Part shown: positions 7,154 through 64,000 of the stretch, in pieces
Layout of the letters: the number at the start of each line of letters is the position of its first letter
Position numbering within the stretch: the stretch's first letter is position 1
Source of the DNA: Falsiroseomonas bella
GTDB taxonomy: Bacteria; Pseudomonadota; Alphaproteobacteria; Acetobacterales; Acetobacteraceae
Length of the DNA: 64,000 nucleotides
Direction of reading: 5' to 3'
Assembly (NCBI RefSeq): GCF_003173615.1
Contig: NZ_QGNA01000006.1
Coordinates: forward strand, 186,001-250,000
Made by a program: the position numbers and the translations under genes
Notes under the pieces: generated by a model
Seen by the model: only the letters and a program-made list of their open reading frames with translations
Database searches by the model: none
Told to the model about the DNA's origin: nothing

Positions 7154-7291
7154 GGACGGGGCTCCGGTCTCACAGAGGCAGGCTAGGTCACGGGGCGGTG
7201 CCGCGCATCGGAACTTTCGTTCATGCGCCAGCCATCATCACGCGGCCGGACCTGTGCCCGAGGGCGACCTGCAGGGAGGCGAGGCGGCTGC

Positions 7292-7729
7292 TCAGCCGCG
7301 GATCACCGTGCGGATGGCGAAGCTGGACTGGATGCGCGCCACGCCGGGCATGCGCGACAGGGCCTCCTTGTGAAGCCGCTCGTAGTCGGCGGCGTCGCGC
7401 ACCTCCACCCGCAGCAGGTAGTCGGACATGCCCGTCATCAGGTGGCAGGCCCGCACCTCGGGGCATTTGCGGACGGCGTCCTCGAACCGGCGCAGGTGGT
7501 CGTCCGTCTGCCGTTCCAGCGTGATCTGGACGATGACGGTCACGGCATCGCGGGTGGGAGGCTCTTCGACCAGGACGGTGTAGCCGCGGATCGTGCCGTT
7601 GCGCTCCAGCAGCCGCAGGCGACGCAGACAGGCGGATGGGGACAGCCCGACGGCTGACGCCAGCGCCGCATTGGGCATTCTCCCGTCGCGCCGCAACTCG
7701 CGAATGATAGCCCGGTCGATGTCGTCCAT
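7292..7729 (-). CDS. Lrp/AsnC family transcriptional regulator
   Basis: 145 residues from ATG 7729; a longer frame upstream is not needed because the Lrp N-terminus [18 protein letters not shown] begins here. Helix-turn-helix: [20 protein letters not shown] (residues about 19-38). The C-terminal RAM ligand-binding domain includes [17 protein letters not shown]. It is divergent from the D-amino acid dehydrogenase gene. By analogy with DadR or BkdR it probably senses an amino acid and controls both genes from the shared 133-bp region. Confidence 0.9.
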
Positions 7730-7750
7730 GCGGTGGATCCTGCGAAATGG

Positions 7751-7765
7751 TAAAACTTTATGCTG
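7751..7765 (+). promoter_or_regulatory. Candidate Lrp-type operator
   Basis: TAAAACTTTATGCTG matches 12 of 15 positions of the E. coli Lrp consensus YAGHAWATTWTDCTR. It lies in an unusually A/T-rich patch of a GC-rich genome, between the divergent Lrp-type gene (start codon 22 bp away) and dadA (start codon about 98 bp away). The match was found by eye; the regulator need not share the E. coli consensus. Confidence 0.4.
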
Positions 7766-7862
7766 TATTGCGCCCCATGGCACCATTCCGTGCGTCGGAT
7801 ATGCCGGAAATTCGCCGATCTTCCTACTATTCTCCGAGCATTCCTTGCTTGGGAGACTTGCG

Positions 7863-9122
7863 ATGCGGGTGCTGGTGCTCGGTTCCGGCGTGGTCGGCGT
7901 GGCAAGCGCTTGGTATCTCGCGCGCGCCGGCCACGAGGTAACCGTCCTCGACCGCCAGCCGGCGCCGGGGATGGAGACCAGCTTCGCCAACGCCGGCCAG
8001 GTCTCTCCCGGCTACTCCGCGCCCTGGGCCGGCCCCGGCATCCCGGTGAAGGCCCTGAAGTGGCTGATGATGCGCCACCGGCCGCTCGTGCTGTGGCCGC
8101 GCCTGGATGGCGGGCTTTATCGCTGGCTCGGCCAGATGCTGGCGAACTGCACCGAGGCCGCCTACGGCGTGAACAAGTCCCGCATGGTGCGGCTGGCCGA
8201 GTATTCGCGGGACTGCCTGAAGGAACTGCGTGCCGAAACAGGCATCGCCTATGACCAGCGCACCAAGGGCACGCTGCAGCTGTTCCGCACCCAGAAGCAG
8301 CTCGATTCGGTCGGTGCCGACATGCAGGTGCTGAAGGCCTTTGGCGTGCGTCACGCGCTGCTCGATCCGGCGGGCTGTGTCGCCGCCGAGCCGGCGCTCG
8401 CCCAGGTCGGGGGCAAGTTCGTGGGCGGGTTGCAACTGCCGGGCGACGAGACCGGGGACGCCTTCCTCTTCACTCAGCGCCTCGCCGCCCTCGCCGAGGC
8501 TGCCGGCGTCCGGTTCCGTCACGGCGTCACCGTCAGGGGGCTGTCGAGCGATGCGGGCGCGATCGTGGCGGTGGAGACCGACCAGGGCCGCTTCACCGCG
8601 GACAGCTACGTCGTTGCGATGGGCAGCTACACGCCGGCGCTGCTGCGGCCGCTCAACGTCCATGTCCCGGTCTACCCGGTGAAGGGCTACTCGCTGACGC
8701 TGCCGGTGACCGAGGAAGCCTCGGCGCCGGTCTCCACGGTGATGGACGAGACCTACAAGGTCGCGATCACGCGGCTCGGCGACCGCATCCGCGTCGGCGG
8801 CACGGCGGAGCTTGCGGGCTTCTCGCTGCGCCTCCGGCGGCCGCGGCGCGAGACGCTCGAGCATTCCGTCGCGGATCTCTTTCCGCGGGGCGGCGACCTC
8901 GGGCGCGCGAGCTTCTGGACCGGGCTGCGGCCGATGACGCCGGACGGCACGCCGGTGATCGGGGCGACGCGTTACACCAATCTCTTCCTCAACACCGGCC
9001 ATGGCACGCTGGGTTGGACCATGGCCTGCGGGTCCGGCCGCCTGCTCGCTGACCTCGTCACCGGGCGCAAGCCGGACATCGCCCATGATGATCTCGGCCT
9101 GGCACGCTACGCACCGGTCTAG
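7863..9122 (+). CDS. dadA: D-amino acid dehydrogenase, DadA-type
   Basis: 419 residues. FAD Rossmann motif [20 protein letters not shown] at the extreme N-terminus, [20 protein letters not shown] characteristic of Dad[12 protein letters not shown], and the C-terminal FAD-binding [20 protein letters not shown]. The enzyme oxidatively deaminates D-amino acids (chiefly D-alanine) to 2-oxo acids at the inner face of the membrane, passing electrons to quinone. Start ATG 7863 fits the family N-terminus. Divergence from an Lrp-type regulator is the typical dadA arrangement. No alanine racemase (dadX) follows. Confidence 0.9.
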
Positions 9123-45229: not shown

Positions 45230-46215
45230 CCCCGATGCTGGAAGCCGTCGGCGTCACCAAGCACTACATACTCGGCCAGGGCCTTGGTGAGCGCCTGCTG
45301 CGCCACCCGCCGCGCGTGGTGCGCGCGGTGGAGGGCGTGGACCTGCTGGTCGGGCGTGGCGAGACGGTGGGGCTGATCGGGGAGAGCGGCTGCGGCAAGT
45401 CCACACTCGGCCGCCTGCTGCTGCGCCTGCACGAGCCCACCGCCGGCGCGATCCGCTTCGATGGGCAGGAGATTGCGCATCTGGATGATGCCGCGATGCG
45501 TCCGTTGCGGCGGCGGATGCAGATCATCTTCCAGGATCCCTACGCCTCGCTGAACCCGCGCCGCACCGTGCGCGAGATCGTCGGCCTCCCGCTGATCCTG
45601 CATGAAGGCCTGCGCGGCGCGGATCTCGAGCAGCGCGTCGCCGCGATGCTGGACCGCGTCGGCCTCGCGCGTCAGCACCTGGAACGCTACCCGCACCAAT
45701 TCTCCGGCGGCCAGCGCCAGCGGATCGGCATCGCCCGCGCGCTGATCCTGCGCCCGGATTTCGTCGTCTGCGACGAGCCCGTGTCGGCGCTCGATGTCTC
45801 CGTGCAGGCGCAGGTTCTCTCCCTGCTCCGCGAACTGCGCGACGAGATGGGCCTCGCGCTGCTCTTCATCTCGCATGACCTGGCGGTGGTGGCGCATCTC
45901 GCGGCGCGCATCGCCGTGATGTATCTCGGCCGCGTGGTGGAGGAGGGGCCGCGCGACGCGCTGATCCGCCGCCCCGCGCATCCCTACACCCGCGCGCTGC
46001 TCGCCGCCGTGCCGCGACTGGACGCCCCGGAGACGCGCCGCCCGGCACCGGTGGGCGACCTGCCCTCCCCCCTGGCACCGCCGCCGGGCTGCCCCTTCCA
46101 TCCGCGCTGCCCCGAGGCCGGGCCGCGCTGCCGAACCGAAGCCCCCCGTCGCGTCGCGCTGGCCGATGCGGGGCATGTCGTCGCCTGCCATGCGCGCGAC
46201 GGAGGCGTCGGATGA
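45226..46215 (+). CDS. Peptide-type ABC transporter ATPase (DppF-like)
   Basis: 329 residues from GTG 45226 (fourth GTGA junction). Walker [22 protein letters not shown]-loop [20 protein letters not shown], signature [20 protein letters not shown], Walker [22 protein letters not shown]-loop [11 protein letters not shown]; the C-terminal [20 protein letters not shown] is the usual cysteine-containing tail. It completes the importer and overlaps the amidohydrolase gene by 4 bp. Confidence 0.93.
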
Positions 46216-47228
46216 GCAAGCTGGTCCTGCTGCGCGGCGATGCGCGCGCCCGCGGTCTCGGCCAGGCGCAGGCCTGCCCGGAGATGTCGGAGGCCGTGCG
46301 CACCTCGATCCGCACGCGCCTGGCCGGCACGCCGCGCGACGCGGCCTTCCTCGCTGCGCAGCGTGGCGCGACGATGGCGCTCGCTCCCGAAGCCTGGGAG
46401 GAATGCGCCGGCATCGCGGCAGGCTTCGGCTTGGAGGCGTCGGAGGTCTTCGACTTCCTCCATCTCGGCTGCCTCGCCGATCTCGCGCGGCTGCGCGAGG
46501 ACCCGGATGGCTGCACCGCTTTCGCGCGCGACGGCGTGGTGGCGAAGAACCGCGACTTCCGGCCGGAACATGTGGCGCTGCAGCGCATCTTCCTGCTGCA
46601 GGACCCGGCCTGGCGCGGGCGCCGCATCCTCTGCGTCGGCTCTCTCGGCGCGCCCGGCGCCTGGTCCTCCGGCATGAACAGCGACGGATTCGCACTGGCC
46701 GATACCCAGATCGCCACCGCCGATCACGGGCCGGGGATGCTGCGCTACTTCCTGATGAACCGCCTGCTCGCCACCTGCGCCACGGTTGCCGAGGCGGTGG
46801 CGGCGATCCGCGCCATGCCGCATGCGGGCGGCGGCAGCCTGGTGATGGCCGATGCCTCCGGCGCCGGCGCCGCGGTGGAGTTGCGGCACGGCCGCGTGGA
46901 TATCGAGCAGGGGGCGTGCGTCTCGCGCACCAACCACTACACCGCCGCGCCGGAGCGCCTGGCCGCGGTCGCGCATTCCGCCGGCCGGCTGGAGACGCTG
47001 CGCGCCGCGCTGGCGGAAGGCCCGCCCGATCCGCGCGCCCTGCTGGCGCTGCACGCGCCGACCGCGATCTGCCGCCACGCCCCCGATCCCTCGCCGACCC
47101 TGGCCGGGGCCGTCTGGGACACGCTGCATGGCATCGCGCGCATCGCGCTCGGCCCGCCCTGCAGCACGCCCTGGCGGGTCTTCGAACCCGCCGCCGGCGG
47201 ATGGCGCGAAACGCACGCCTTGGCGTAG
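46212..47228 (+). CDS. C45-family (acyl-CoA:6-APA acyltransferase-like) Ntn hydrolase
   Basis: 338 residues. The hallmark DGCTAFARDGVVAKNRDF places the would-be nucleophile at C101, preceded by DPDG where the family autocleaves, and followed by the KNRDF core; GAWSSGMNSDGFALADT and SRTNHYTAAP are further family motifs. Members hydrolyse amide bonds of acyl-amino acids, penicillin-like or other small amides, after self-processing. It has no signal peptide, so it would act in the cytoplasm on a solute imported by the five preceding genes. Confidence 0.85.
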   Translation: MSKLVLLRGDARARGLGQAQACPEMSEAVRTSIRTRLAGTPRDAAFLAAQRGATMALAPEAWEECAGIAAGFGLEASEVFDFLHLGCLADLARLREDPDGCTAFARDGVVAKNRDFRPEHVALQRIFLLQDPAWRGRRILCVGSLGAPGAWSSGMNSDGFALADTQIATADHGPGMLRYFLMNRLLATCATVAEAVAAIRAMPHAGGGSLVMADASGAGAAVELRHGRVDIEQGACVSRTNHYTAAPERLAAVAHSAGRLETLRAALAEGPPDPRALLALHAPTAICRHAPDPSPTLAGAVWDTLHGIARIALGPPCSTPWRVFEPAAGGWRETHALA

Positions 47229-47257: not shown

Positions 47258-48256
47258 ATGGCTCAGGGCGAGCTGCTGGGGGAGCACGAGAGCATCCGCG
47301 CGGTGCGCGCGCTGGCGGCGCGCATCGCCGCCAGCCCCGTTCACCAGGTGCTGATCTATGGCGAGACGGGCACCGGCAAGGGCCTGGTGGCCCGGATGAT
47401 CCATCGCCTGTCGAAGCGCTCCGGCCGCGCCTTCGTGGATGTGAACTGCGCCGCCATTCCCGCCAACCTCATGGAGAGCGAGCTGTTCGGCCATGAGCGC
47501 GGCGCCTTCACCGGCGCCGCCAACGCCAAGCCCGGTCTGATCGAGGCCGCCGATGGCGGCACGCTGTTCCTGGACGAGATCCGGGAGATGGACCCGCAGC
47601 TCCAGGCCAAGCTGCTGACCCTGCTGGACACGCAGCGGTTCCGCCGCGTGGGCGCGGTGAAGTCCATCGCCGTGGATGTGCGCTTCGTCGCCGCCACCAA
47701 CAAGATCCTGCTGTCCGAGGTCAGCGCCGGCCGCTTCCGCGACGACCTGTACTGGCGGCTGCAGGTGGTGCCCGTGAACATCCCGCCGCTGCGCGCCCGC
47801 GGCGACGACGTGCTGCTGCTGGCCGAGGCCTTCGTGGCCCATCACGGCGCCCGCTGCGGGCGGGTGATCCGCGGGCTGGAGCCGGCCGTCGCCGAGGCCT
47901 TCCGCCGCTATTCCTGGCCCGGCAACGTCCGGGAGCTGGAGAACCTGATCGAGCGCATCGCCATCCTGGAGACCGAGGACCGCGTGCTGATGCGCCACCT
48001 GCCCGATCGGCTGGTGCGAGAAGTGGAGGGCCGCGCCCAGCCGCCGATCGCCGGGATGGGCGGGCAGGGGGCCGAGCATCTGCCGCTGCATCTCGGCTTC
48101 CATGCCGGCACCGAGGCCTTCCAGCGCAGCCTGATCGAGGCCGCGCTGAAGGAAGCCGGCGGCCGCCATGGCCGCGCCGCCCAGCGCCTCCGCCTCTCCC
48201 GCCACGCGCTGCGGCACCAGATGCTGAAGCTCGGCATGGCCGTGCCCACTGCTTGA
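47258..48256 (+). CDS. Sigma54-dependent transcriptional activator, PspF-like layout
   Basis: 332 residues without an N-terminal sensory domain. The AAA+ domain begins at once: Walker A GETGTGKG (35-42), the sigma54-contact loop GAFTGA (82-87), Walker B GTLFLDEI (101-108), VDVRFVAATNKILLSEVSAG and YSWPGNVRELENLIERIAIL. The C-terminal Fis-type HTH is GGRHGRAAQRLRLSRHALRH. With no receiver or GAF domain, activity must be set by expression, by another protein, or by a ligand bound elsewhere. It lies 29 bp after the amidohydrolase gene; sigma54-type promoters flank the operon on both sides. Confidence 0.92.
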   Translation: MAQGELLGEHESIRAVRALAARIAASPVHQVLIYGETGTGKGLVARMIHRLSKRSGRAFVDVNCAAIPANLMESELFGHERGAFTGAANAKPGLIEAADGGTLFLDEIREMDPQLQAKLLTLLDTQRFRRVGAVKSIAVDVRFVAATNKILLSEVSAGRFRDDLYWRLQVVPVNIPPLRARGDDVLLLAEAFVAHHGARCGRVIRGLEPAVAEAFRRYSWPGNVRELENLIERIAILETEDRVLMRHLPDRLVREVEGRAQPPIAGMGGQGAEHLPLHLGFHAGTEAFQRSLIEAALKEAGGRHGRAAQRLRLSRHALRHQMLKLGMAVPTA

Positions 48257-48272
48257 CGGCAACGGGACACAC

Positions 48273-48290
48273 TTGGCACGCTGCGTGCAA
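48273..48290 (+). promoter_or_regulatory. Sigma54-type promoter for the AtuA/DUF4387 pair
   Basis: TTGGCACGCTGCGTGCAA: TTGGCACG, four bases, GTGCA; GG (48275-48276) and GC (48287-48288) are 10 bp apart. One base of the -12 consensus TTGCA differs. It falls 17 bp after the stop of the sigma54 activator gene; transcription near 48300 would leave about 19 nt before the ATG at 48319. Confidence 0.7.
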
Positions 48291-48318
48291 AGCCGCGCCC
48301 ATTCCACGGACGCACGGC

Positions 48319-49707
48319 ATGACCGACATCACCATCCTCTGCCCCACGGGCCATCTCGGCTTCACGCCGCTGGAGCCGGAGTCCTTCCGCGCCGGCTGCG
48401 CGCTGAAGCCGGACTTCATCATCGCCGACAGCGGAAGCTGCGACATCGGGCCGTATCCGCTCGGCGCCGACGGCCAGGCGAGCCCCGCCGCCTGGCAGCG
48501 CCACGACCTCGAGATCATGCTGACCGAGGCGCGCCGGCTCGGCGTGCCGATGATCGTGGGGTCGGCCAGCGACACCGGCACCGATCGCGGCGTGCGGCAA
48601 TTCGCCGAGATCATCCGCGACGTCGCGGCGGAGAAGGGGATGGCGCCCTTCCGCATGGCCACGATCTTCTCCGAGCTCACGCGCGAGCAGGTGCTCGGCC
48701 GCATGCAGGACGGCGCAACGATCCAGGGCCTTGATGGCCGCCCCGACGCCGACGCGGCGCTGATCGGCCGCACCGACCGCATCGTGGCGGTCATGGGCGC
48801 GGAGCCGATCGCCGCCGCGCTCGCCGCCGGCGCCGATGTGGTGATCGCCGGCCGCGCCTCGGACTGCGCGCTGTTCGCGGCGCCGCTGCTGAACGCCGGC
48901 ATGTCGCCGGCGACCGCGTATTACGCCGGCAAGCTGATGGAATGCGCCTCCTTCTGCTGCGAGCCTTTCATGGGCAAGGAGAGCATCTTCGGCCGCATCA
49001 CGGAGGGCGACATCCGCGTCACCGCGATGCATCCCGGCCAGCGCTGCACGCCCGCCTCGCTCGCCAGCCACGCGATGTATGAGCGCCGCGACCCGTTCCG
49101 CGAATACGTCGCCTCCGGCTACGTGGACATGACCAACGTCCACTATGAGCAATGGGACGAGAAGACCGCGCGCGCCACCGGCGCCACCTTCGTCCCCAGC
49201 GCGAAGCCGATGGTGAAGCTGGAAGGCGCAGGGAAGGTGGGCGAGCGGCGGCTGGCCATCGTCGGCATCCGCGATCCCTACACCATCGAGAACATCGACA
49301 AGGCGATGGACTGGGCGCGCGCGCGTCTTGCGGAGCGCTTCGGCGCGCCGGAGAGCGCGGGCTGGACCGTGCACTACCACGTCTATGGCCGCGACGGCGT
49401 GATGGGCAGCCTGGAGCCGAGCCCGCCGCTCCGCCCGCATGAACTCGGCATCGTGGTAGAGACCGTTTGCCAGGATGCGAAGCGCGCCGAGGAGATCTGC
49501 GCGCTGGCCTCGCGCAACCTGTTCTATGCCCGCCTGAAGGAGGTGAAAGGCACGGCCGGCGCCGCGGCGCTGATGTCCGACGAGATCCTGGTCGGCAAGC
49601 CCGGCTACGAATGGACGCTGAACCACGTGATGCCGGTGCGCGACGCGACGGAGCTGTTCCGCACCGAGTTCAGCACGGTCGGCGGCGCGGCGCGGAAGGC
49701 GGCCTGA
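48319..49707 (+). CDS. AtuA-like protein (acyclic terpene utilization / DUF1446 family)
   Basis: 462 residues. Family features: GCALKPDFIIADSGSCDIGP near the N-terminus, MIVGSASDTGTDRGVRQFAE, GADVVIAGRASDCALFAAPL, YYAGKLMECASFCCEPFMGK and the late YHVYGRDGVMGSLEP. AtuA is needed for citronellol/geraniol catabolism in Pseudomonas, but its chemistry is unclear, and most homologues, like this one, are paired with a DUF4387 protein and lie away from terpene genes. The 3-bp gap to the DUF4387 gene shows they form a unit. Confidence 0.85.
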   Translation: MTDITILCPTGHLGFTPLEPESFRAGCALKPDFIIADSGSCDIGPYPLGADGQASPAAWQRHDLEIMLTEARRLGVPMIVGSASDTGTDRGVRQFAEIIRDVAAEKGMAPFRMATIFSELTREQVLGRMQDGATIQGLDGRPDADAALIGRTDRIVAVMGAEPIAAALAAGADVVIAGRASDCALFAAPLLNAGMSPATAYYAGKLMECASFCCEPFMGKESIFGRITEGDIRVTAMHPGQRCTPASLASHAMYERRDPFREYVASGYVDMTNVHYEQWDEKTARATGATFVPSAKPMVKLEGAGKVGERRLAIVGIRDPYTIENIDKAMDWARARLAERFGAPESAGWTVHYHVYGRDGVMGSLEPSPPLRPHELGIVVETVCQDAKRAEEICALASRNLFYARLKEVKGTAGAAALMSDEILVGKPGYEWTLNHVMPVRDATELFRTEFSTVGGAARKAA

Positions 49708-54273: not shown

Positions 54274-55050
54274 TCAGTTCGTGGTGCGGATGGACTGGTC
54301 CGCCTGCATGCGTCGCTCCAGCCAGCGCACCGCGGCCGAGATCAGCAGGATCAGCACCAGGTATTCCAGGATCAGGATCGTGTAGATCTCGAGCGGCCGG
54401 AACACCGTCACCACCAGCTCATTCGCCTTTCGCGTCAGCTCCTGGTAGCCGATCACGCTGGCAAGGCTGCTCATCTTGACCACGTAGATGAACTGGTTGG
54501 CGATGGGCGGCAGCACGCGGCGGATCGCCTGGGGCAGGATGACGAAGCGCATGCGCTGCCAGGGCGAGAGGCCGAGCGCCATCGCCGCCTCCCGCTGGCC
54601 CCGCTCGACGGATTGGATGCCGGCCCGAAAAATCTCCGCCTCGAAGGCGGAATCGCAGATGGCGATGGCCAGCATCGCCGCGACGAAGACATCCAGCCGG
54701 ATGTCGAGCACCACCGGCAGGCCGTAGAAGACCCACAGGATCATGACCAGGATGGGGATGGCGCGGAACAGCTCGACATAGCCGCGATTGAACCAGCGCA
54801 GCGGCGCCATGCGCGACATGCCCATCATCGCGACCGCGAGGCCCAGCACCAGCGACAGCACCATCGTCGCCAGCGAGAGCGAGACCGTCGCCCAGAAGCC
54901 GGAGACCAGGAAACCGAGATTGGCCTGCCCGCGCGCATCGCGCGGATCCACCACATGCCAGGCCCAGTTGCCACCGCACGCGGCCAGCAGCGGCGCCAGC
55001 GCCATCATCAGCAGCAGCGCGCGCGCCACCCTTCCGCGAGCCGATCCCAT
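54274..55050 (-). CDS. Amino-acid-type ABC transporter permease (HisM/GlnP-like)
   Basis: 258 residues from ATG 55050. Five or six membrane spans; FRAIPILVMILWVFYGLPVV is the family's periplasmic-gate signature, and the coupling loop is SVERGQREAAMALGLSPWQR followed by FVILPQAIRRVLPPIANQFI. It is divergent from the Rieske oxygenase gene (90 bp) and on the strand opposite the nearest receptor gene. It probably belongs to the same uptake system as the two plus-strand permeases, since no ATPase is present. Confidence 0.88.
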   Translation of the reverse strand: MGSARGRVARALLLMMALAPLLAACGGNWAWHVVDPRDARGQANLGFLVSGFWATVSLSLATMVLSLVLGLAVAMMGMSRMAPLRWFNRGYVELFRAIPILVMILWVFYGLPVVLDIRLDVFVAAMLAIAICDSAFEAEIFRAGIQSVERGQREAAMALGLSPWQRMRFVILPQAIRRVLPPIANQFIYVVKMSSLASVIGYQELTRKANELVVTVFRPLEIYTILILEYLVLILLISAAVRWLERRMQADQSIRTTN

Positions 55051-55140: not shown

Positions 55141-56472
55141 ATGCAAGGCGACCTGTCGGAACGCTATGCCGGCCATCGGCGGCGCGCGGTTCCCGCGCCC
55201 GATCCGGAGCTGACGCAGGTGGGCCCCGGCACGCCCTGCGGCGAGTATCTGCGCCGCGCCTGGCAGCCTGTCTGCCTTTCCGCGCAACTCGCGGACCTGC
55301 CGTTGGCGCTGCGCATCCTCGGCGAGGATCTCGTCGCCTTTCGCGACGGGGAGGGTGCGGTCGGCCTGCTGCACCGCCATTGCAGCCATCGCGGCGCCAG
55401 CCTGGAGTTCGGCCGCATCATGCCGCGCGGGATTTCCTGCTGCTATCACGGCTGGCACTACGACCGCGACGGCACGATCCTGGCCACGCCGGCCGAGCCG
55501 GAGAGCAGCCAGATCCGCCATCGCCTTCGCCATGGCGCCTATCCCGTCGTGGAGCGGCACGGGCTGGTCTTCGCCTTCCTCGGCGATCCCGCCGCGGTGC
55601 CGCCGCCGCCGGTGCTGGACGTGGAGCAGGAACCGGGCGTCACCCTCGCGCCCTTCCTGCTGGAGATCCCCTGCAACTGGCTGCAGGTCTACGAGAACAG
55701 CCAGGACCCGGTGCACGTGGTCTGGCTGCATGCGCGCAATGCCGGCGCGCATTTCGACGAATCCAACAGCGCCGAGCAGGAGCTCGACTTCATGCCGACG
55801 CCACTCGGCATGATGAATGTCCAGTCGCGCCGCTGGGGCGGCATGGTCTGGACGCGCACCGTGGAATGCATCCTGCCCAACCTGAACCAGACCGGTGCGA
55901 TCTGGGAGGATGCGGCGGAGGCGAAACCGTTCCAGCGCGTCGGCCTGACGCGCTGGGTGGTGCCGGTGGACGACACCCACAGCCTGCAGATCGGCTGGCG
56001 CCATCTCGGCGCGCATCTCGATCCGCATGGCAAGGACCGGCCGGACCGGATCGGCCTCGGCCTGATCGACTTCGAGGGCCAGGACGATTCGGCGAGCTAT
56101 GCGGATCGCCAGCGCCGGCCCGGCGACTACGACGCGCAGGTCAGCCAGCGCACCGTCGCCGTGCATGCGCTCGAGAACCTGGCCGGCAGCGACCGCGGCG
56201 TCGCGATGCTGCGGCGCCTGTTGCGCCGCGCGCTGCGCAGCCCGGACATGCCCGCGCAATGCGTCGCCCCGCAGCCCATTGCCACCTTTTGCCAGGACAC
56301 CATCACGCCGCTGCCGCCCGCGCCGGACGACCGCGCCCTGCTGCGTGCGCATGGCGCCGCGGTGGCACGGGCCGTGCTTGACAGCGCCGACCTGCCGCGC
56401 GAGGCGCGTCGCATCGCCATTTCCGCCGCCGCAAGCGGCACCTCTCTGCCCAACGAGGAGACTTCCGCATGA
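55141..56472 (+). CDS. Rieske non-heme iron oxygenase, large subunit
   Basis: 443 residues. Rieske cluster ligands CSH (C81, H83) and CCYH (C100, H103) with HRHCSHRGASLEFGRIMP between them. The mononuclear iron site is DPVHVVWLH (D189, H192, H197), matching the D-x2-H-x4-H of ring-hydroxylating and N/O-demethylating oxygenases. The N-terminal GTPCGEYLRRAWQPVCLSAQ resembles the phthalate/vanillate-type branch. It needs a reductase, which is not in the window. It overlaps the receptor gene by 4 bp, so the receptor's ligand is a likely substrate. Confidence 0.9.
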   Translation: MQGDLSERYAGHRRRAVPAPDPELTQVGPGTPCGEYLRRAWQPVCLSAQLADLPLALRILGEDLVAFRDGEGAVGLLHRHCSHRGASLEFGRIMPRGISCCYHGWHYDRDGTILATPAEPESSQIRHRLRHGAYPVVERHGLVFAFLGDPAAVPPPPVLDVEQEPGVTLAPFLLEIPCNWLQVYENSQDPVHVVWLHARNAGAHFDESNSAEQELDFMPTPLGMMNVQSRRWGGMVWTRTVECILPNLNQTGAIWEDAAEAKPFQRVGLTRWVVPVDDTHSLQIGWRHLGAHLDPHGKDRPDRIGLGLIDFEGQDDSASYADRQRRPGDYDAQVSQRTVAVHALENLAGSDRGVAMLRRLLRRALRSPDMPAQCVAPQPIATFCQDTITPLPPAPDDRALLRAHGAAVARAVLDSADLPREARRIAISAAASGTSLPNEETSA

Positions 56473-57272
56473 ATCGTCGTCATCTGCCGGCGGCGGCTGC
56501 GGCCGCCGCGGCGCTTGCCCTGCCCATCCAGGCGCAGGCGCAGGCCGCCGCATCCGGCAAGCTCGCCGCGCTGCAAGCCGCCGGCCGCATCCGCTTCGGC
56601 ACCACCGGCGACTTCAACCCGATGAGCTTCCGCGATCCCGCCAGCCGGCAGTATCGCGGCCACCAGATCGAGTGCGCCGAGCAGCTGGCGCGCGACATGA
56701 ACCTGCGGCCTGAATTCGTCGCGACGGACTGGCGCACCTTGATCAACGGCCTGCAGGCCGACCAGTACGACGTTGTCTTCACCGGCACCTCCATGTCGGT
56801 GCCGCGCGCCATGGCGGCGAGCTTCACCATCCCCTGGGGCCGCAATGCTTTCGTGCCGCTGGTGCGCCGGCGCGATGCCAACAAGTTCGCCAACTGGGAT
56901 GCGCTGAACCAGCGCAGCGTGACCATCGGCACCAATCTCGGCACCACGATGGAGACCTGGGTGCAGTCCGCCCTGCCCAACGCCACGCTGCGCCGCGTGG
57001 AAAGCCCGGCGCGCGACTGGCAGGAGTTGATCGGCGGGCGCGTGGACGCGACCATGTCCTCGCTGATCGAGGCGGCCTTTCTCACGAAGGAGTATCCGGA
57101 CCTCGTCGCGATCTTCGCGAACACGCCGCGCAACCCGATCCCCATGGCATTCCTGGCGCCGCTGAACGACACGGTTTTCACGAACTTCCTGAACGCCTGG
57201 ATCACCATCCGTCTCGCCAGCGGCTTCTTCGACGAGGTGAACCGGAAGTGGGGAGTCGTGCAGGCGTCGTGA
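56469..57272 (+). CDS. Amino-acid-type ABC substrate-binding protein
   Basis: 267 residues. Leader MNRRHLPAAAAAAAALALPI with cleavage after QAQAQA; mature SBP_bac_3 fold: LAALQAAGRIRFGTTGDFNP, CAEQLARDMNLRPEFVATDW, INGLQADQYDVVFTGTSMSV. The usual Arg and Asp ligand contacts of classical amino-acid receptors are not obvious (FTIPWGRNAFVPLVRRRD). It is coupled to the Rieske oxygenase and the Rid gene by 4-bp overlaps. Confidence 0.87.
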   Translation: MNRRHLPAAAAAAAALALPIQAQAQAAASGKLAALQAAGRIRFGTTGDFNPMSFRDPASRQYRGHQIECAEQLARDMNLRPEFVATDWRTLINGLQADQYDVVFTGTSMSVPRAMAASFTIPWGRNAFVPLVRRRDANKFANWDALNQRSVTIGTNLGTTMETWVQSALPNATLRRVESPARDWQELIGGRVDATMSSLIEAAFLTKEYPDLVAIFANTPRNPIPMAFLAPLNDTVFTNFLNAWITIRLASGFFDEVNRKWGVVQAS

Positions 57273-57658
57273 CGCGGCGGCACCACGAGACCGGGCGGCC
57301 CTGGGAGAAATCCTGCGGCTACAGCCGTGCCGTCCGGGTCGGGCCCTATGCGGAAACCGCGCTGTGCAGCCCCTGCGGGCCGGACGGCGCGGTGCTGCAC
57401 CCTGGCGACGTCTATCGCCAGACGCTGGCCTGCCTCGACCTGGTGAAGGAGGCGCTGGAAGGCGTGGGCATGACGCTCGCCGATGTGGTGAAGACGCGCA
57501 TCTACGTCGCCGACCCGACGCACTGGGAGGAATCCGGCCGCGCCCATGGCGAGGTCTTCTCCGAAATCCGCCCGGCCCTCGGCTGGGTCTACATGACCGG
57601 CTTCTTCGCGCCGGGCATCACCGTGGAGGTGGAGGCGACCGCCTTCCGTCAGGAATGA
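57269..57658 (+). CDS. Rid family protein lacking the RidA arginine
   Basis: 129 residues from GTG 57269 (GTGA overlap with the receptor stop). Rid fold segments: YSRAVRVGPYAETALCSPCG, GDVYRQTLACLDLVKEALEG and DVVKTRIYVADPTHWEESGR. The closing stretch PALGWVYMTGFFAPGITVEV has no Arg where RidA has PARSC, so it belongs to another Rid subfamily (Rid4-7-like) and probably does not deaminate imines. Its last 10 bp overlap the convergent creatininase-like gene. Confidence 0.85.
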   Translation: MTRRHHETGRPWEKSCGYSRAVRVGPYAETALCSPCGPDGAVLHPGDVYRQTLACLDLVKEALEGVGMTLADVVKTRIYVADPTHWEESGRAHGEVFSEIRPALGWVYMTGFFAPGITVEVEATAFRQE

Positions 57659-58431
57659 GGCTCGGGCGCCGCCTCGAAGGCCGCGAAGAGCTCGGCCACA
57701 TCCTCCGCGGCGGCCTGCAGAAGCGCCGCGCCCTGCTCCGCCGTGGCGAGCGCGGGATCGGCGCCGACCACGCCTTCGGGGTAGCGCGCACGATGCCGCG
57801 CCGCATCCTCGTGCCGGTCCCCGCCGAGATCCACCAGCGGATCCGGCGGCAAGGCGCGATAGGCCGGCCACGCAGCGGGCGCGGCGCCCGTCACATGCAA
57901 CGCGATCGCGATCTCGGAGGGCGTGCCATGAAACCCCTCGCGATCGCCGTAGAAGTCGCGGCGCAGCGCGCCGAGGCGCGGTCCCTCCCACCAGGCGCGC
58001 AGCTTCACGCTCAGCGGCCGCGGAAAGACGAGGCGGCCGAGCGAGACCTCGGAAAGAACTTCCTGCACCGCGGCCAGCGCCGGCGCGACATTGCCGCCGT
58101 GCCCGGTCAACAGCAGCACGCGGGAGAAGCCGGTGCGGCCGAGGCTCGCGAGCACGTCGCAGAGCAGTGCGCTCAGCGTCGAGGGCCTCAGGCTCACGGT
58201 GCCGGCGAAGCCCAGGTTGAACTGCGCCGGCCCATAGGCCAGCGCCGGCAGCGCGACGCCGCCCGCGATCTCCGCGGCACGCAGCGCCACCGCCTCGGCG
58301 CAGATCGTGTCCGTGCCGAGCATCCCCGCCGCGCCATGCTGTTCCAGGCTGCCGAGCGGCAGGATCACGCCGCGCCGCCCGCGCGCGAGCCGTTCCTCCA
58401 CAGCGGGCCAGGTCATCCGGTCGAGACGCAT
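57649..58431 (-). CDS. Creatininase family amidohydrolase
   Basis: 260 residues. Metal ligands of the creatininase fold are visible: ILPLGSLEQHGAAGMLGTDT (E30, H32, D41), LLLTGHGGNVAPALAAVQEV (His), and FHGTPSEIAIALHV (Glu). Members hydrolyse cyclic or formamide C-N bonds (creatinine, 3-dehydro-inosose, FAPy, mycofactocin precursor). In this cluster of amine-oxidising genes, opening a cyclic amide is a reasonable guess. The start codon lies 2 bp from that of the divergent flavoprotein gene. Confidence 0.85.
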   Translation of the reverse strand: MRLDRMTWPAVEERLARGRRGVILPLGSLEQHGAAGMLGTDTICAEAVALRAAEIAGGVALPALAYGPAQFNLGFAGTVSLRPSTLSALLCDVLASLGRTGFSRVLLLTGHGGNVAPALAAVQEVLSEVSLGRLVFPRPLSVKLRAWWEGPRLGALRRDFYGDREGFHGTPSEIAIALHVTGAAPAAWPAYRALPPDPLVDLGGDRHEDAARHRARYPEGVVGADPALATAEQGAALLQAAAEDVAELFAAFEAAPEPHS

Positions 58432-58433
58432 CG

Positions 58434-59633
58434 ATGCTCCCCCTGACGCGGCAGGTCGCCGCCCTCATCCCCCGCGCCGCCGCCGCGCGCCCTCTGCGCG
58501 TCGCGATCGTGGGCGCCGGCATCCTCGGCCTCTGCACCGCCTGGGCGCTCGCGCGCCGCGGTCATGCAGTGACCGTGCTGGAAGCCGGGCCGTTGCCCAA
58601 CCCACAGGCGTCGTCCACCGACGAGGGGCGCATCATCCGCCATGCCTATGGCACGATGGAAGGCTACGCGGCCATGATGCCGGCGGGTTTCGCCGCCTGG
58701 CGCGCCCTCTTCGCCGAGACCGGCGCCGACCGCCTGGTGCCCTGCCGTGCGGTCTATGCGCTGCGCGCCGAGAGCCCGTGGGAGGCGGCGGTCGCCCGCA
58801 CGCAGGAAGCTGCCGGGCTCGGCTTCCACCGGCTCGACGCCGCGGCGCTGGATGCGATCCCTGTGCTGAGCCGCGACGGCCTGCTCCGCGCCATCGAGGT
58901 GGATGGCTCCGGCATGCTGCTCGCGCGCCCGATCCTCGACGACCTTTTGGCGTTGCTGCCGCGCCTCGGCGTCTCGCTGCGCGGCAACGCGCGGGTTGCC
59001 GAAGTTGCGGCAGGCGGCGTGCGGCTGGCGGAGGGCGAGGGCGTCGCCGCCGATGCCGTGATCGTCGCCGCCGGTGCCTGGGCGCCGCGGCTGCTGCCAG
59101 AGATCGCCGCGGCCGCCGGCTTGCGCGTCTCGCTGCAGACGCTCGCCTATCTCGCTCCACCCGAGGACCTGGCCGATGCCTGGGCCACCGCGCCGATGCT
59201 GCTCTGCCGGCTGCCGGGGCATGCCACCGGCGGCGTCTATGTGCTGCCGCCGCGCGCCGGCACGCGGCTCAAGATCGGCGACTACGACACCACCGCGCCC
59301 GGAGCCCCTGATGCGCCGCCGGAGGAGTCGCGCCGCGCCGCGCTGCTCGATGCCGGGCGAATCGCCATCGCGGGGTTCGATCGCCATCGCGTGACCAACC
59401 TGCGCCATTGCCTCTACACCATGGCGCCGGAGGACCGCTTCGTGCTGCGCCCGGCGGGGCAGGGGGCATGGCTCGCCTCCGCCTGTTCCGGCCACGGCTT
59501 CAAGCTGGCGCCACTGCTCGCGCTCGGCCTCGCCGCGGCGCTGGAGGAGGCGCTGGCGCCCGAGGAACTCGCACACTGGGCCGCAGGGCGCGAAGGGGAG
59601 GCTTCCCTCCCGCGCGCCGACGCGGGATCGTAG
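58434..59633 (+). CDS. Monomeric sarcosine oxidase / N-methyl amino acid oxidase-like flavoprotein
   Basis: 399 residues. FAD motif RVAIVGAGILGLCTAWALAR follows a 20-residue N-terminal extension. SSTDEGRIIRHAYG and ACSGHGFKLAP are MSOX/SolA signatures, and RHCLYTMAPEDRF places C326 where sarcosine oxidase binds FAD covalently. It oxidises a secondary or N-methyl amine to an imine with hydrogen peroxide release. It begins a plus-strand run that continues with the 2OG dioxygenase 24 bp later. Confidence 0.87.
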   Translation: MLPLTRQVAALIPRAAAARPLRVAIVGAGILGLCTAWALARRGHAVTVLEAGPLPNPQASSTDEGRIIRHAYGTMEGYAAMMPAGFAAWRALFAETGADRLVPCRAVYALRAESPWEAAVARTQEAAGLGFHRLDAAALDAIPVLSRDGLLRAIEVDGSGMLLARPILDDLLALLPRLGVSLRGNARVAEVAAGGVRLAEGEGVAADAVIVAAGAWAPRLLPEIAAAAGLRVSLQTLAYLAPPEDLADAWATAPMLLCRLPGHATGGVYVLPPRAGTRLKIGDYDTTAPGAPDAPPEESRRAALLDAGRIAIAGFDRHRVTNLRHCLYTMAPEDRFVLRPAGQGAWLASACSGHGFKLAPLLALGLAAALEEALAPEELAHWAAGREGEASLPRADAGS

Positions 59634-59657: not shown

Positions 59658-60647
59658 ATGTCCTACGCAACCGCACGCGCCATCGCCGTGGACGAGATCC
59701 CGGTCATCGACATCGCGCCCCTCGTCGCTCGTGATCCCGCCGGCGCCGCCGCGACCGGCGCGGCCATGCGCGAGGCCAGCGAGCGCATCGGCTTCTTCTA
59801 CATCGCCGGCCATGGCGTGCCCGCTGCGCTGACCCAGAACCTGTTCTCCACCGCCGCCCGCTTCTTCGCCCTGCCGGAGGAGGAGAAGGCCACGGTGAAG
59901 GTGAACAAGCGCCATCGCGGCTGGATCGGCCATGGCGGAGCGAAGATGTATGGCACCGCCAAGGCCGACCTGAAGGAGAGCTTCGTCTGGGGCCTCGAGC
60001 TGCCCGAGGACGACCCGGATGTCGCCGCCGGCACGCCGCTGATGGGCCCGAACCAATGGCCCGCCGCGCTGCCCGAGCTGCGCCCGGCGCTCTATGGCTG
60101 GTACGAGGCGGTGGTCGCCGCCGGCCACGCCGTGCTGCGCGGCCTGGCGCTCAGCCTCGGCCGCGACATGGATTTCTTCGCGAAACCCTTCGAGCGCCCG
60201 CTCGCCCGCGGCTCCGCCATCTGGTACCCGCCGCAGCCGCCCGATCTCGGCCGCGAGCAGTTCGGCGTCGCGCCGCACACCGATTACGGCGGGCTGACGC
60301 TGCTGGCGCAGGACATGACCGGCGGCCTGCAGGTGAAGGGCACCGACCGCGAATGGGTCATGGCGCATCCGATCCCCGACACCTTCGTGGTGAACATCGG
60401 CGACCTGATGCATCGCTGGACGAATGGCCGCTTCCACAGCAACCCGCATCGCGTGGTGAACACCTCCGGCAAGGCGCGGCAGAGCGCGGCGGTGTTCTTC
60501 GACCCGGGCTTCCACGCCGTGGTGGACCCGCGCGACCTGCTGGAAGATCCCGCGCAGGCGAAATACCCGCCGATCGCCTGTGGCGAATGGGTCGTCGGCA
60601 AGTTCGACAAGGCCTTTCAGTACCGCGCGCCGGCCACGCCGTCATGA
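59658..60647 (+). CDS. 2-oxoglutarate/Fe(II)-dependent dioxygenase (isopenicillin-N-synthase-like family)
   Basis: 329 residues. N-terminal DIOX_N domain (IPVIDIAPLV, RIGFFYIAGHGVP). The double-stranded beta-helix has the iron triad H207-x-D209 in VAPHTDYGGLTLLAQ and H264 in SNPHRVVNTS, and the 2-oxoglutarate anchor R274-x-S276 in KARQSAAVFF. It hydroxylates or desaturates a small substrate; bacterial relatives include ethylene-forming and unassigned catabolic enzymes. It overlaps the HD-oxygenase gene by 4 bp, an arrangement paralleling PhnY/PhnZ and TmpA/TmpB pairs. Confidence 0.88.
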   Translation: MSYATARAIAVDEIPVIDIAPLVARDPAGAAATGAAMREASERIGFFYIAGHGVPAALTQNLFSTAARFFALPEEEKATVKVNKRHRGWIGHGGAKMYGTAKADLKESFVWGLELPEDDPDVAAGTPLMGPNQWPAALPELRPALYGWYEAVVAAGHAVLRGLALSLGRDMDFFAKPFERPLARGSAIWYPPQPPDLGREQFGVAPHTDYGGLTLLAQDMTGGLQVKGTDREWVMAHPIPDTFVVNIGDLMHRWTNGRFHSNPHRVVNTSGKARQSAAVFFDPGFHAVVDPRDLLEDPAQAKYPPIACGEWVVGKFDKAFQYRAPATPS

Positions 60648-61279
60648 GCCGCTCCTTCCCCGGCGACCCACGGCCCTCGCGGCTGCTGTCGCCGGAGATG
60701 CAGCATGTGCCGCCGGTGGAGATGCAGGATTTCCGCCGTGCGGAGTGGACGCTGCTGCGCGACCAGCGCCGCCCCTTCGACGCCGAACTCCAGGCGCGGC
60801 ATGTGCTGCGCGCGCTGGAGGCCTCGGCCGCCGATCCGAGCTTCGGCTACCAGGTGAACAACTACCGCCATTGCGTGCAGGCCGCGACGGCGGCACTGCA
60901 GGACGGGCGCGACGAGGAATACGTCGTCGTCGCGCTGCTGCACGACATCGGCTTCACGATGTGTCCCACCAACCACGGCCCCTTCGCCGCCGCGCTGCTC
61001 GCGCCCTATGTGTCCGACGCCAGCCGCTGGCTGCTGGAGCATCACGCGCTCTTCCTCGACTTCCACTGCCACGACCACCCCGAGGATCACTGCGACCCGG
61101 CGGCACGGGAACGCTGGCGCGGCCATCCGCATTTCGCCGCCACGGCCGATTTCGTCGCGCGCTTCGACCAGGGCACGGTGATCCCCGGCCTGCCGGAAGC
61201 GCCGCTGTCGGTCTTCGCGCCCATGGTCGCGCGCCTCTTCGCCCGCCCGCCGCGACGGTTCACGCTGCGTGACGACTGA
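60644..61279 (+). CDS. HD-domain protein, candidate PhnZ/MIOX-type mixed-valent diiron oxygenase
   Basis: 211 residues. Putative iron ligands can all be mapped: H76 (NNYRHCVQA), H100-D101 (VALLHDIGF), H111 (NHGPFAAA), H133 or H134 (LEHHALF) and D175 (VARFDQG). The 24-residue spacing from the first His to the HD pair equals that in PhnZ, and YRHCVQ matches the HxxQ there. PhnZ and TmpB cleave C-P bonds after hydroxylation by a 2OG dioxygenase, and inositol oxygenase cleaves a C-C bond. Being coupled to a 2OG dioxygenase gene supports an oxidative-cleavage role over ordinary phosphohydrolysis. Confidence 0.78.
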   Translation: MSRSFPGDPRPSRLLSPEMQHVPPVEMQDFRRAEWTLLRDQRRPFDAELQARHVLRALEASAADPSFGYQVNNYRHCVQAATAALQDGRDEEYVVVALLHDIGFTMCPTNHGPFAAALLAPYVSDASRWLLEHHALFLDFHCHDHPEDHCDPAARERWRGHPHFAATADFVARFDQGTVIPGLPEAPLSVFAPMVARLFARPPRRFTLRDD

Positions 61280-62096
61280 GCGGCGTTCGCGGGAGCCCCC
61301 GAGGGAGCCGCGCGGCCAGCAGTGGCGCCGCCTGCTCGACCTGCTGCAATTCGCGCTCTTCCTCGGCCTGCTCGCCTGGCTACTGTTCGAGGGCGGGACG
61401 CGGATGGGCTACAATTGGCAATGGTACCGCGTGCCGCGCTACCTGTTCCAGGTCTTCGAGGGCGAGATCTTCCTCGGGCCGCTGCTGAAGGGCCTGCTGG
61501 TGACGCTGCAGATCAGCGCCATCGCCCTGGTGCTGACGGTGGTGATCGGGCTCGGCGCGGCGCTGCTGCGCCTGTCGGGTTCGGCCGCCGGGCGCTGGCT
61601 GGTGATCGGCTATGTCGAGACGATCCGCAACACGCCGCTGCTGGTCCAGCTCTACATCGTCTACTTCATCCTGGCGCCGATCCTGGGCCTCGATCGCTTC
61701 TGGGCCGGCGTTCTCTGCCTCGCGCTCTTCGAAGGCGCCTTCGCCGCGGAGATCTTCCGGGGCGGCATCATGGCGGTGCGCAAGGGCCAGTGGGAGGCCG
61801 CCTGGGCGCTCGGCCTCTCGCGCCGCGACGCCTATCGCTTCGTCGTGCTGCCGCAGGCGCTGCGCGTGATCCTGCCGCCGCTGGCCGGCCTCGGCGTGTC
61901 GCTGATCAAGCATTCGGCGATCGTCAGCGTCATCGCGGTGTTCGACCTGACCAACGAGGGCCGCAACGTCATCAGCGACACCTTCATGACCTTCGAGATC
62001 TGGATAACCGTGGCCGTGCTCTATCTCTGTGTCACGGTGCTGCTCTCATTGGGCGTCGGGCTGCTGGAAAGGCGGCTCAAGGGCGCCATGGCCTGA
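61269..62096 (+). CDS. Amino-acid-type ABC transporter permease
   Basis: 275 residues from GTG 61269, overlapping the HD gene by 11 bp. A basic cytoplasmic N-terminus (TTERRSREPPREPRGQQWRR) precedes five or six membrane spans; ETIRNTPLLVQLYIVYFILA is the HisMQ-family gate signature and AVRKGQWEAAWALGLSRRDA the coupling loop. It pairs with the permease at 62997. Confidence 0.9.
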   Translation: MTTERRSREPPREPRGQQWRRLLDLLQFALFLGLLAWLLFEGGTRMGYNWQWYRVPRYLFQVFEGEIFLGPLLKGLLVTLQISAIALVLTVVIGLGAALLRLSGSAAGRWLVIGYVETIRNTPLLVQLYIVYFILAPILGLDRFWAGVLCLALFEGAFAAEIFRGGIMAVRKGQWEAAWALGLSRRDAYRFVVLPQALRVILPPLAGLGVSLIKHSAIVSVIAVFDLTNEGRNVISDTFMTFEIWITVAVLYLCVTVLLSLGVGLLERRLKGAMA

Positions 62097-62123: not shown

Positions 62124-62987
62124 ATGACCGATGAATCCGGCTTCCGTCGCCGCCTGATCGCCCCCGCCGCCGGCGGGCTGGCCGCGCTCGGCGCCTTCGC
62201 CTTCGGCCGCCCCGCGGCGGCGCAGGGCGCGGATGCGCGCGCCGCCCTCGCCGCCACCTCCATGATCGAGGAGGTGAAGCGTCGCGGCACGCTGCGCGTC
62301 GGCATGTCCACCTTCGTGCCATGGGCCTTCCGCAACCGCGCGGGCGAGCTGGTGGGCTACGAGATCGACGTGGCGAATCGCCTGGCGCAGGACATGGGCG
62401 TGCGCGCGGAATTCGTGCCCACCGCCTGGGACGGCATCATCCCCGCGCTGCTCGCCGGCCGGTTCGACGCGATCATCGGCGGCATGACGATCACGCCGCA
62501 GCGCAATCTGAGCGCCAACTTCACCAACGCCTATTCCGCGACCGGCGTGGACATGGCGGCGAGCAAGCGCCTCGCGGCCAACATGACCACACTGGAGGCC
62601 TACAACCGCCCTAACGTGACGATCGCGGGCCGCCGTGGCACCTCCGCCCTCGCCGCCGCGCAGCGCCTGCTGCCCCGCGCGACCTTCCGCCAGTTCGACG
62701 ACGACGCGCAGTCCATCCTGGAAGTGGTGAACGGCCGCGCGCATGCGATGGTGGGCAGCATCCCGCGCCCGCTCTTCGCCGTGCTGGACAACCCCGATGC
62801 GCTGTTCAGCCCGTTCCCCGAGCCGATGGCGCGGCAGGCCGACGCGATGGCGGTGCGCAAGTCCGACCCGGACGCGCTGAACTTCCTCAACAACTGGATC
62901 CTGCTGCGCCAGCTCGATGGCTGGCTGGAGGAACGGCAGAAATACTGGTTCAGCGCCCGCGAATGGCGCGACCAGCTGCCCGGCTGA
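62124..62987 (+). CDS. Amino-acid-type ABC substrate-binding protein
   Basis: 287 residues. Leader with RRR and a hydrophobic run ending RPAAAQGA. Mature SBP_bac_3 fold: VKRRGTLRVGMSTFVPWAFR, VGYEIDVANRLAQDMGVRAE, IIPALLAGRFDAIIGGMTIT, PQRNLSANFTNAYSATGVDM. This one keeps the classical layout better than the receptor at 56469. Flanked by two permease genes, forming a receptor/permease set without its ATPase in view. Confidence 0.92.
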   Translation: MTDESGFRRRLIAPAAGGLAALGAFAFGRPAAAQGADARAALAATSMIEEVKRRGTLRVGMSTFVPWAFRNRAGELVGYEIDVANRLAQDMGVRAEFVPTAWDGIIPALLAGRFDAIIGGMTITPQRNLSANFTNAYSATGVDMAASKRLAANMTTLEAYNRPNVTIAGRRGTSALAAAQRLLPRATFRQFDDDAQSILEVVNGRAHAMVGSIPRPLFAVLDNPDALFSPFPEPMARQADAMAVRKSDPDALNFLNNWILLRQLDGWLEERQKYWFSAREWRDQLPG

Positions 62988-62996
62988 ACGGCGCCG

Positions 62997-63893
62997 ATGG
63001 ACCTGCCGGGCGGGCCCTATGCCCGCCGGCCCCGTCGCCCGGCGCTCGATGCGCTGGTCATCCTCGCCGTGCTCGGCGCGCTGGGCCTGCTCGCCTGGCG
63101 GGCCGGCACGGCGCTCGACTACCGCTGGAACTTCGCGCCGGTCTGGGGCTTCGTGCTGCGCCACGACGCGGAGCGCGGCTGGGTGGCGAACCTGCTGCTG
63201 CAGGGGCTGCTCACCACGCTGCGCGTCAGCTTCTGGGCGGCGATCGTCGCGGCCGTGGTCGGCGTGGCGATGGGCGTCGCGCGTACCTCCCGCGCGCTGC
63301 TGCCGAGGCTGATCGCCGGCTTCTATGTCGAGACGATCCGCAACATCCCGCCGCTGGTCTTCGTCTTCGTCTTCTACTTCTTCGCCACCAGCCAGATCCT
63401 GCCCGCGCTCGGCGTGGAGGACTGGATCCGCAGGCAGGACCCCGCGACGCTCGCCTGGATCGAGCTCTTCTTCGGCCCGCCGCAATTCGCCGCCGGCGTC
63501 ATCGCCGCCATCCTCTGCCTCGGCCTGTTCGAGGGGGCCTATGTCACGGAGATCGTGCGCGCCGGTATCCAGTCCCTGCCGCGCGGCCAGTGGGAAGCGG
63601 CGGAGGCGCTCGGCATGTCGCGCTTGCGCGCGTTGCGCCATGTGATCCTGCCGCAGGCGGTGGCGCGCACCGTGCCGCCGCTGGCCGGGCAGGCGGTTTC
63701 GCTGGTGAAGGATTCCTCGATCATCTCGCTGGTCTCGATCCAGGACCTCGCCTTCCTGGGCAACGAGGTCGCGGCAACGACGAGCCGTGTCTTCGAGACC
63801 TGGCTTCTCGTCGCCGCCTTCTACTTCATCGTCTGTGCCGCGCTGTCCTTCGTCGCGGCCCGTCTCGAACGCCGCTTCGCCACGCGCGGCTGA
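62997..63893 (+). CDS. Amino-acid-type ABC transporter permease
   Basis: 298 residues. ETIRNIPPLVFVFVFYFFAT and the coupling loop SLPRGQWEAAEALGMSRLRA followed by VILPQAVARTVPPLAGQAVS are HisMQ-family signatures. It is longer than most, through an extracellular insertion (EDWIRRQDPATLAWIELFFG) between membrane spans, as in GltJ/AapQ-type subunits. It follows the receptor gene by 9 bp. Confidence 0.9.
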   Translation: MDLPGGPYARRPRRPALDALVILAVLGALGLLAWRAGTALDYRWNFAPVWGFVLRHDAERGWVANLLLQGLLTTLRVSFWAAIVAAVVGVAMGVARTSRALLPRLIAGFYVETIRNIPPLVFVFVFYFFATSQILPALGVEDWIRRQDPATLAWIELFFGPPQFAAGVIAAILCLGLFEGAYVTEIVRAGIQSLPRGQWEAAEALGMSRLRALRHVILPQAVARTVPPLAGQAVSLVKDSSIISLVSIQDLAFLGNEVAATTSRVFETWLLVAAFYFIVCAALSFVAARLERRFATRG

Positions 63894-63913: not shown

Positions 63914-64000
63914 ATGCCGGCCACGGCCGAGAATCCCGCCTGGATCCGCCTCGTCCCCTACGACGAAAGCGAGGGCTATCTCCGCACCCTCTACGACCGC
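63914..64000 (+). CDS. Start of a gene, possibly AhpD/carboxymuconolactone decarboxylase-like (3' end outside window)
   Basis: Only 29 codons are visible: PAWIRLVPYDESEGYLRTLY continues to the window end. The pattern WIRLVPYDEAxGxLRxLYD opens many peroxidase-related AhpD-like proteins. It has a ribosome site (CAGGAG) and lies 20 bp after the permease gene, so it probably belongs to the same operon. Confidence 0.5.
   Translation, partial: MPATAENPAWIRLVPYDESEGYLRTLYDR

Follow-up and report, generated by a model that had tools for sequence, protein, structure and literature searches.

Only three characterised HD-domain oxygenases, MIOX, PhnZ and TmpB, are named in a 2020 review (PMC8177086), and a 2023 review counts four versions of the phosphonate pathway that combines a 2-oxoglutarate (2OG) dioxygenase with an HD-domain enzyme (PMC10574752). 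The pairs PhnY*/PhnZ and TmpA/TmpB oxidize 2-aminoethylphosphonate and act on trimethylaminoethylphosphonate, respectively. No 2OG partner takes part in the action of MIOX (PMC8177086). Here we describe a 2OG/HD gene pair in a 64,000-nucleotide stretch of the Falsiroseomonas bella genome (contig NZ_QGNA01000006.1, positions 186,001 to 250,000; hereafter the window), which resembles TmpA/TmpB in its two-gene layout and in the register of six metal ligands. The pair is a real and conserved variant of the 2OG/HD-oxygenase theme and is undescribed as far as the open-licence literature was searched; in that literature we found no paper naming both the isopenicillin N synthase (IPNS) family and an HD domain-containing protein, nor any relevant passage in PMC10949508.

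Both genes are intact open reading frames (ORFs) on the forward strand. The Fe(II)/2OG dioxygenase gene (59658-60647) encodes 329 amino acids and belongs to an IPNS/ethylene-forming-enzyme-like branch; the HD-domain gene (60644-61279) encodes 211 amino acids, a predicted diiron oxygenase of the group that we call clade A. They share a 4 bp ATGA stop/start overlap (60644..60647, forward strand), and re-reading the sequence bore out the first-pass annotation on both the ORFs and their overlap. An equivalent overlap, GTGA, is present in Roseomonas sp. AR75 (L062; L-numbers denote loci and G-numbers genomes), whose HD protein is 87 % identical, and a 4 bp 2OG/HD overlap was seen in these two loci only. 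The dN/dS ratios against L062 and L063 are low, about 0.15 and 0.39 for the HD gene and about 0.055 and 0.15 for the 2OG gene, and both genes are thus under purifying selection.

The HD protein carries H76, Q79, H100, D101, H111, H133, H134 and D175, from which the first-pass annotation had drawn a candidate diiron ligand set that left the choice between H133 and H134 open. All of these residues are at the positions claimed, and the 24-residue His-to-HD spacing, likened there to that of PhnZ, agrees without gaps with both PhnZ and TmpB; in a profile alignment all six ligands are in register with the TmpB set. H76, H100, D101, H111, H134 and D175 are invariant in 37 of 37 aligned clade A sequences, whereas H133 is not, and we therefore take H134 as the ligand and rule out H133. 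Observed as it is, the set does not by itself prove an oxygenase, because the HD hydrolase YqeK, which acts on diadenosine tetraphosphate (Ap4A), has the same six-residue dinuclear H...HD...H...H...D motif (PMC8177086). This motif, together with a weak match to the general Pfam HD model (12.9 bits, cut-off 22), favours an explanation in which the HD protein would serve to clean up a product as a diiron hydrolase, either similar to YqeK or one of the other HD phosphohydrolases; we consider this improbable. Phosphohydrolases typically keep an Arg three residues ahead of the first His (PMC8177086); it is present in none of the 37 clade A sequences, which have Asn (32), Met (4) or Ile (1) instead. 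Sequence, profile and fold searches all point to PhnZ, TmpB and MIOX, and we reject identity with the nucleotide phosphohydrolases on these searches, the tree described below containing no phosphohydrolase rows.

PhnZ and TmpB are the closest characterised enzymes to the HD protein, and TmpB is its top PDB sequence match. A PhnZ-like HD-oxygenase fold is confidently predicted (AlphaFold2 model, pLDDT 93.8), and a Foldseek/VIA search with this model placed PhnZ and TmpB best and MIOX next, with no other HD-oxygenase entry among the matches, at most 50, listed by VIA. The structural check suggested at first pass was run in part, through this predicted fold and through the profile register of the ligands, and neither it nor the checks on family placement and on conservation of the pair refuted the first-pass reading. 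By motif, score and tree, the protein is nevertheless neither a PhnZ nor a TmpB: it scores 30.7 bits with TIGR03276 (curated cut-off 214.6), 28 with the TmpB family (cut-off 300) and 18.6 with the PhnZ1 family (cut-off 300), and it differs from MIOX in falling below the cut-off of the Pfam MIOX model (12.6 bits against 25).

In PhnZ and TmpB, a YxxE loop supplies a Tyr that caps Fe2 and a Glu that reads the substrate amine (PMC8177086). The equivalent position in the window (60839..60850, forward strand) is S66-F-G-Y69, so that Tyr24 and Glu27 are replaced. In clade A, all 37 sequences have Tyr where the loop has its Glu (position -7, counted from the first His), and Ser, Thr, Gly or Ala where it has its Tyr (position -10); Glu is found at -7 in 15 of 19 sequences of the TIGR03276-matched set and in 11 of 11 of the TmpB-matched set. 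Three positions beyond the HD Asp, all 37 clade A sequences have Phe, where His stands in 19/19 Phn-HD and 9/11 TmpB rows; the window protein is of HDIGF type, not the HDIGH type of PhnZ. With Tyr69 in place of the YxxE Glu, the mode of substrate binding should differ from that of an aminophosphonate.

A tree of 91 HD rows, drawn with a midpoint root and excluding phosphohydrolases, places clade A on one side of a branch (support 97/94) and outside the Phn-HD/TmpB clade, with all 30 Phn/Tmp rows separated from it by very long branches (3.11 and 0.79 changes per column in length, support 100/100). About half of those 30 rows are above curated cut-offs (11 of 20 loci in the TIGR03276 set and 6 of 12 in the TmpB set, one locus of each having given no row). 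A search for MIOX rows matched 0 of 249 genomes and also 0 of 14 controls, and is hence uninformative. The caution at first pass that the pair is not simply phnYZ was right, given the separate clade without a YxxE loop. The source genome (5.9 Mb, 14 contigs) has no Phn-HD above cut-off, the sole match at 1e-5 being the HD protein itself (1.1e-6), and no TmpB match at 1e-40; no relative was found in the viral contigs searched.

Two further HD families were encountered. Group B (L018-L031 and L057-L061) is a wide family related to clade A, of which 15 of 19 known loci were sampled and whose status as a single clade the tree does not establish; unlike clade A and the Phn/Tmp proteins, it has Asp after its HDIG-type motifs (18/19) and Arg three before the first His (18/19). 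A third family (L032-L036), of about 185 aa and with an HDISN motif, aligns with clade A by profile.

The 2OG partner was described at first pass as intact and of the IPNS-like branch, and this holds: it matches Pfam DIOX_N (3.6e-31) and 2OG-FeII_Oxy (1.7e-24) and the PDB entries 9ovh (1.3e-71) and 6jyv (2e-63), and both the HxD...H facial triad and the RxS pair are complete. The metal ligands H207, D209 and H264 and the 2OG-binding R274 and S276 are each conserved in 95 % or more of the 48 relatives compared, and R184 is kept in the subfamily and absent from seven outgroup rows. The pair differs from PhnY*/PhnZ in this IPNS-type partner and in its amino-acid- and hut-type neighbours, and the 2OG protein is also unlike the TmpA-like proteins, which are of the TauD/gamma-butyrobetaine dioxygenase type and were seen here only as a neighbour in L057. 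In that locus (6881-8606, plasmid pF045_1) a TmpA-like TauD dioxygenase (347 bits, TmpA cut-off 400) is followed directly by a group B HD gene, and then by genes for a choline-type binding protein, a choline dehydrogenase and an aldehyde dehydrogenase; this is a second, differently built 2OG/HD pair. The window 2OG gene has no other match in its own genome at E<=1e-10. A family-wide search matched 164 of 299 genomes at E<=1e-40; since 2OG proteins of this wider type are so common, their mere occurrence in a genome is hardly informative, and the counts below are restricted to close linkage.

Neighbours were counted by tblastn with the cassette proteins (E 1e-15, at least half of the query aligned) within the locus DNA analysed. 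A 2OG homologue was found at 22 of the 37 clade A loci and at 0 of 15 group B loci (Fisher p 3.7e-5, with kinship among loci ignored, although many are closely related, such as L068/69/73/74, L080/81, L065/71, L088/92 and L093/95/97). The gene pair, whose conservation in relatives was in question at first pass, is therefore kept, albeit in variable order: a gene for a peroxidase-related AhpD-fold protein (CMD) lies between HD and 2OG in 11 of the 22 linked loci, and 2OG is upstream of HD in two, both close relatives of the window. Other genes recur at the 37 loci, namely CMD (20), creatininase (15), FAD-dependent amine oxidase (DAO)/sarcosine-oxidase subunits (13), glutathione S-transferase (GST; 12), a HisC-like aminotransferase (9) and a Rieske oxygenase (6), the soxB matches in L084 and L089 and the Rieske match in L083 being only 27-28 % identical. 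None of these six was found in the 15 group B loci or in 20 distant 2OG-paralogue loci, which are lower-ranked family matches (intermediate ranks left out), four of them on stretches of less than 6 kb. Clade A is carried chiefly by alpha- and beta-proteobacteria, among which metagenome bins are numerous; Leekyejoonella is the one actinobacterium, and named carrier strains include Roseomonas sp. AR75 and Elioraea rosea PF-30. In L067, L077, L089 and L176 there are sulfopyruvate/phosphonopyruvate-decarboxylase-like thiamine pyrophosphate (TPP) subunits, below family cut-offs, and in L067 and L077 these lie between the HisC-like aminotransferase and the HD gene.

In some relatives the pair stands beside histidine-utilization (hut) genes. 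Such genes, with HutH, HutU, HutF, HutC and HutI representatives above NCBIfam cut-offs, are present at 5 of 37 HD loci, at 2 of 20 class-level 2OG loci (the top 20 2OG matches after the window itself) and at 12 of 25 HD-less 2OG loci, and at 0/20 and 0/15 of the control loci. The HD-less set comprises 25 of the 28 best family matches not linked to HD (G159, G111 and G004 left out), three of them in genomes with a clade A HD gene elsewhere (G103, G089 and G241). In the 2OG tree, the weakly supported (83/75) branch that contains the HD/CMD cassettes has hut genes at four separate places: L064 with L066, L088 with L092, L182 and L192. L182 places the whole cassette beside hutUHIFC: HD, CMD, 2OG, creatininase, HutU and HutH share a strand, and next come HutI, HutF, HutC and a gene that by eye resembles HutG. 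In the L064 and L066 assemblies the clustered hutH is the sole hutH found. The textbook hut pathway is not known to include a 2OG/HD step.

We propose, with slightly more confidence than doubt, that the two genes form a two-oxygenase module for an imported, amino-acid-like nitrogen compound, probably histidine-like. The 2OG dioxygenase would hydroxylate either the substrate itself or an intermediate formed early on, and the HD enzyme, for which we infer a mixed-valent diiron cofactor, would then use O2 without an outside reductant to oxidize and cleave the bond beside the new hydroxyl, as do PhnZ, TmpB and MIOX. The hut neighbours suggest an imidazole in the substrate, and those encoding DAO/sarcosine-oxidase and Rieske proteins suggest N-demethylation; the substrate is probably an imidazole amino acid with an N-methyl group or some other modification, and its products would enter general nitrogen metabolism or the hut pathway. 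The cleavage pathway put forward at first pass gains support from the fold, the family placement and the conservation of the pair, and oxidative cleavage itself stays a reading of that evidence.

Several observations weigh against this proposal. A 2OG gene of this type is lacking from the locus DNA at 15 of 37 HD loci (in L070, L078, L095, L096 and L098 among them one or both flanks are short, and the L089 genome has a 47 % identical 2OG on the same contig, outside the locus DNA), and an HD gene is lacking from that of 13 of the 20 class-level 2OG loci. Neither gene, therefore, strictly needs the other nearby, and strict dependence of HD on a neighbouring 2OG is rejected. At seven HD-less loci (L145, L146, L152, L153, L158, L161 and L162) an amidohydrolase gene adjoins the 2OG gene, with a 4 bp overlap in L145 and L153, and all but one of the seven have the DAO gene on its far side; this amidohydrolase may be an alternative second step. 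One more match to it was found in L089. The HisC-like aminotransferase, sulfopyruvate-decarboxylase-like subunits and creatininase do not point to histidine alone, 32 of 37 HD loci have no hut gene in the locus DNA, and the source genome differs from the hut-linked loci in having its hutH on another contig; to these is added the service of the six ligands in hydrolysis by YqeK (PMC8177086).

The variable order and optional presence of the two genes would also suit an explanation in which they do separate jobs, the HD protein being a MIOX-like oxygenase of another intermediate and the 2OG enzyme serving, for example, in N-demethylation of a methylated amino acid. At the class-level 2OG loci CMD is commoner than HD (12 versus 7 of 20), and five loci from relatives in the window's family (L150, L151, L154, L156 and L166) have the order 2OG, HutC, HutU, HutH, HutI with no HD gene. 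We nonetheless think separate jobs unlikely, as the two genes share a strand in 21 of 22 linked pairs, a gap of 52-78 bp separates their matches in 6 of 22, and the layout resembles PhnYZ and TmpAB, whose action is sequential.

A variant phosphonate pathway, in which another kind of 2OG enzyme joins the HD protein in cleaving the carbon-phosphorus bond of an amino-phosphonate, would fit with PhnZ and TmpB as the nearest characterised enzymes and with the sub-cut-off decarboxylase-like subunits in the four loci named above. L113, the only one of 32 Phn-HD/TmpB loci (1.5 kb flanks) with an IPNS-like 2OG, has that gene nearby (346-1203), 33 % identical to that of the window. Against this stand the Tyr at the amine-sensing YxxE Glu position in 37/37, the very long branch to Phn-HD/TmpB, the absence of any phosphonate gene among the annotated recurrent neighbour clusters (g9, g10, g16 and single-locus neighbours being outside the annotation), and recurrent neighbours that are amino-acid transporters, demethylases and hut genes. 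We consider this pathway very improbable and reject it as the default.

The remaining genes around the pair were called with a codon-bias script checked on the window. Upstream are an amino-acid ATP-binding cassette (ABC) permease (54274..55050, reverse strand; by tblastn to the window permeases, start approximate, by eye), a Rieske non-haem iron oxygenase (55141..56472, forward; Pfam Rieske 3.2e-16), a periplasmic amino-acid-type binding protein, SBP0 (56469..57272, forward; matched best in the PDB by 5kkw, whose deposited name is cyclohexadienyl dehydratase, 2.2e-54), a RidA-like protein (57269..57658, forward; named by eye from a gene call in cluster g11, start approximate), a creatininase-family amidohydrolase (57649..58431, reverse; Pfam Creatininase 2.9e-52) and an N-methyltryptophan-oxidase/sarcosine-oxidase-like DAO (58434..59633, forward; Pfam DAO 1.6e-41; NCBIfam N-methyl-L-tryptophan oxidase 6.7e-39, below cut-off; PDB sarcosine oxidase 5.5e-24). 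Downstream, all on the forward strand, the 3' end of the HD gene overlaps an amino-acid ABC permease gene (61269..62096), which is followed by a second periplasmic amino-acid-type binding protein, SBP1 (62124..62987; PDB 9e2b 1.9e-85), and another amino-acid ABC permease (62997..63893), both permeases being ORFs of conserved cluster g1 named by eye. The window end cuts the CMD gene (63914..64000; PDB AhpD 5.5e-18), which is intact in the source genome (208 aa, full ORF in L215) and whose homologue in L062 is above the cut-off of NCBIfam TIGR01926. Farther away, C45-peptidase-like and AtuA-like proteins (46212-47228 and 48253-49707, by eye) lie beside ABC transporter genes.

Since the 2OG/HD pair forms a separate branch and in some relatives stands beside histidine-breakdown genes, its target may be a bond in a compound that no known pair of this kind attacks. 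It offers a small, testable cassette, present in part in named strains, and a first substrate class to try, and one more branch, coupled to a 2OG enzyme of its own in a non-phosphonate setting, would show how a rare, self-regenerating diiron chemistry is re-used.
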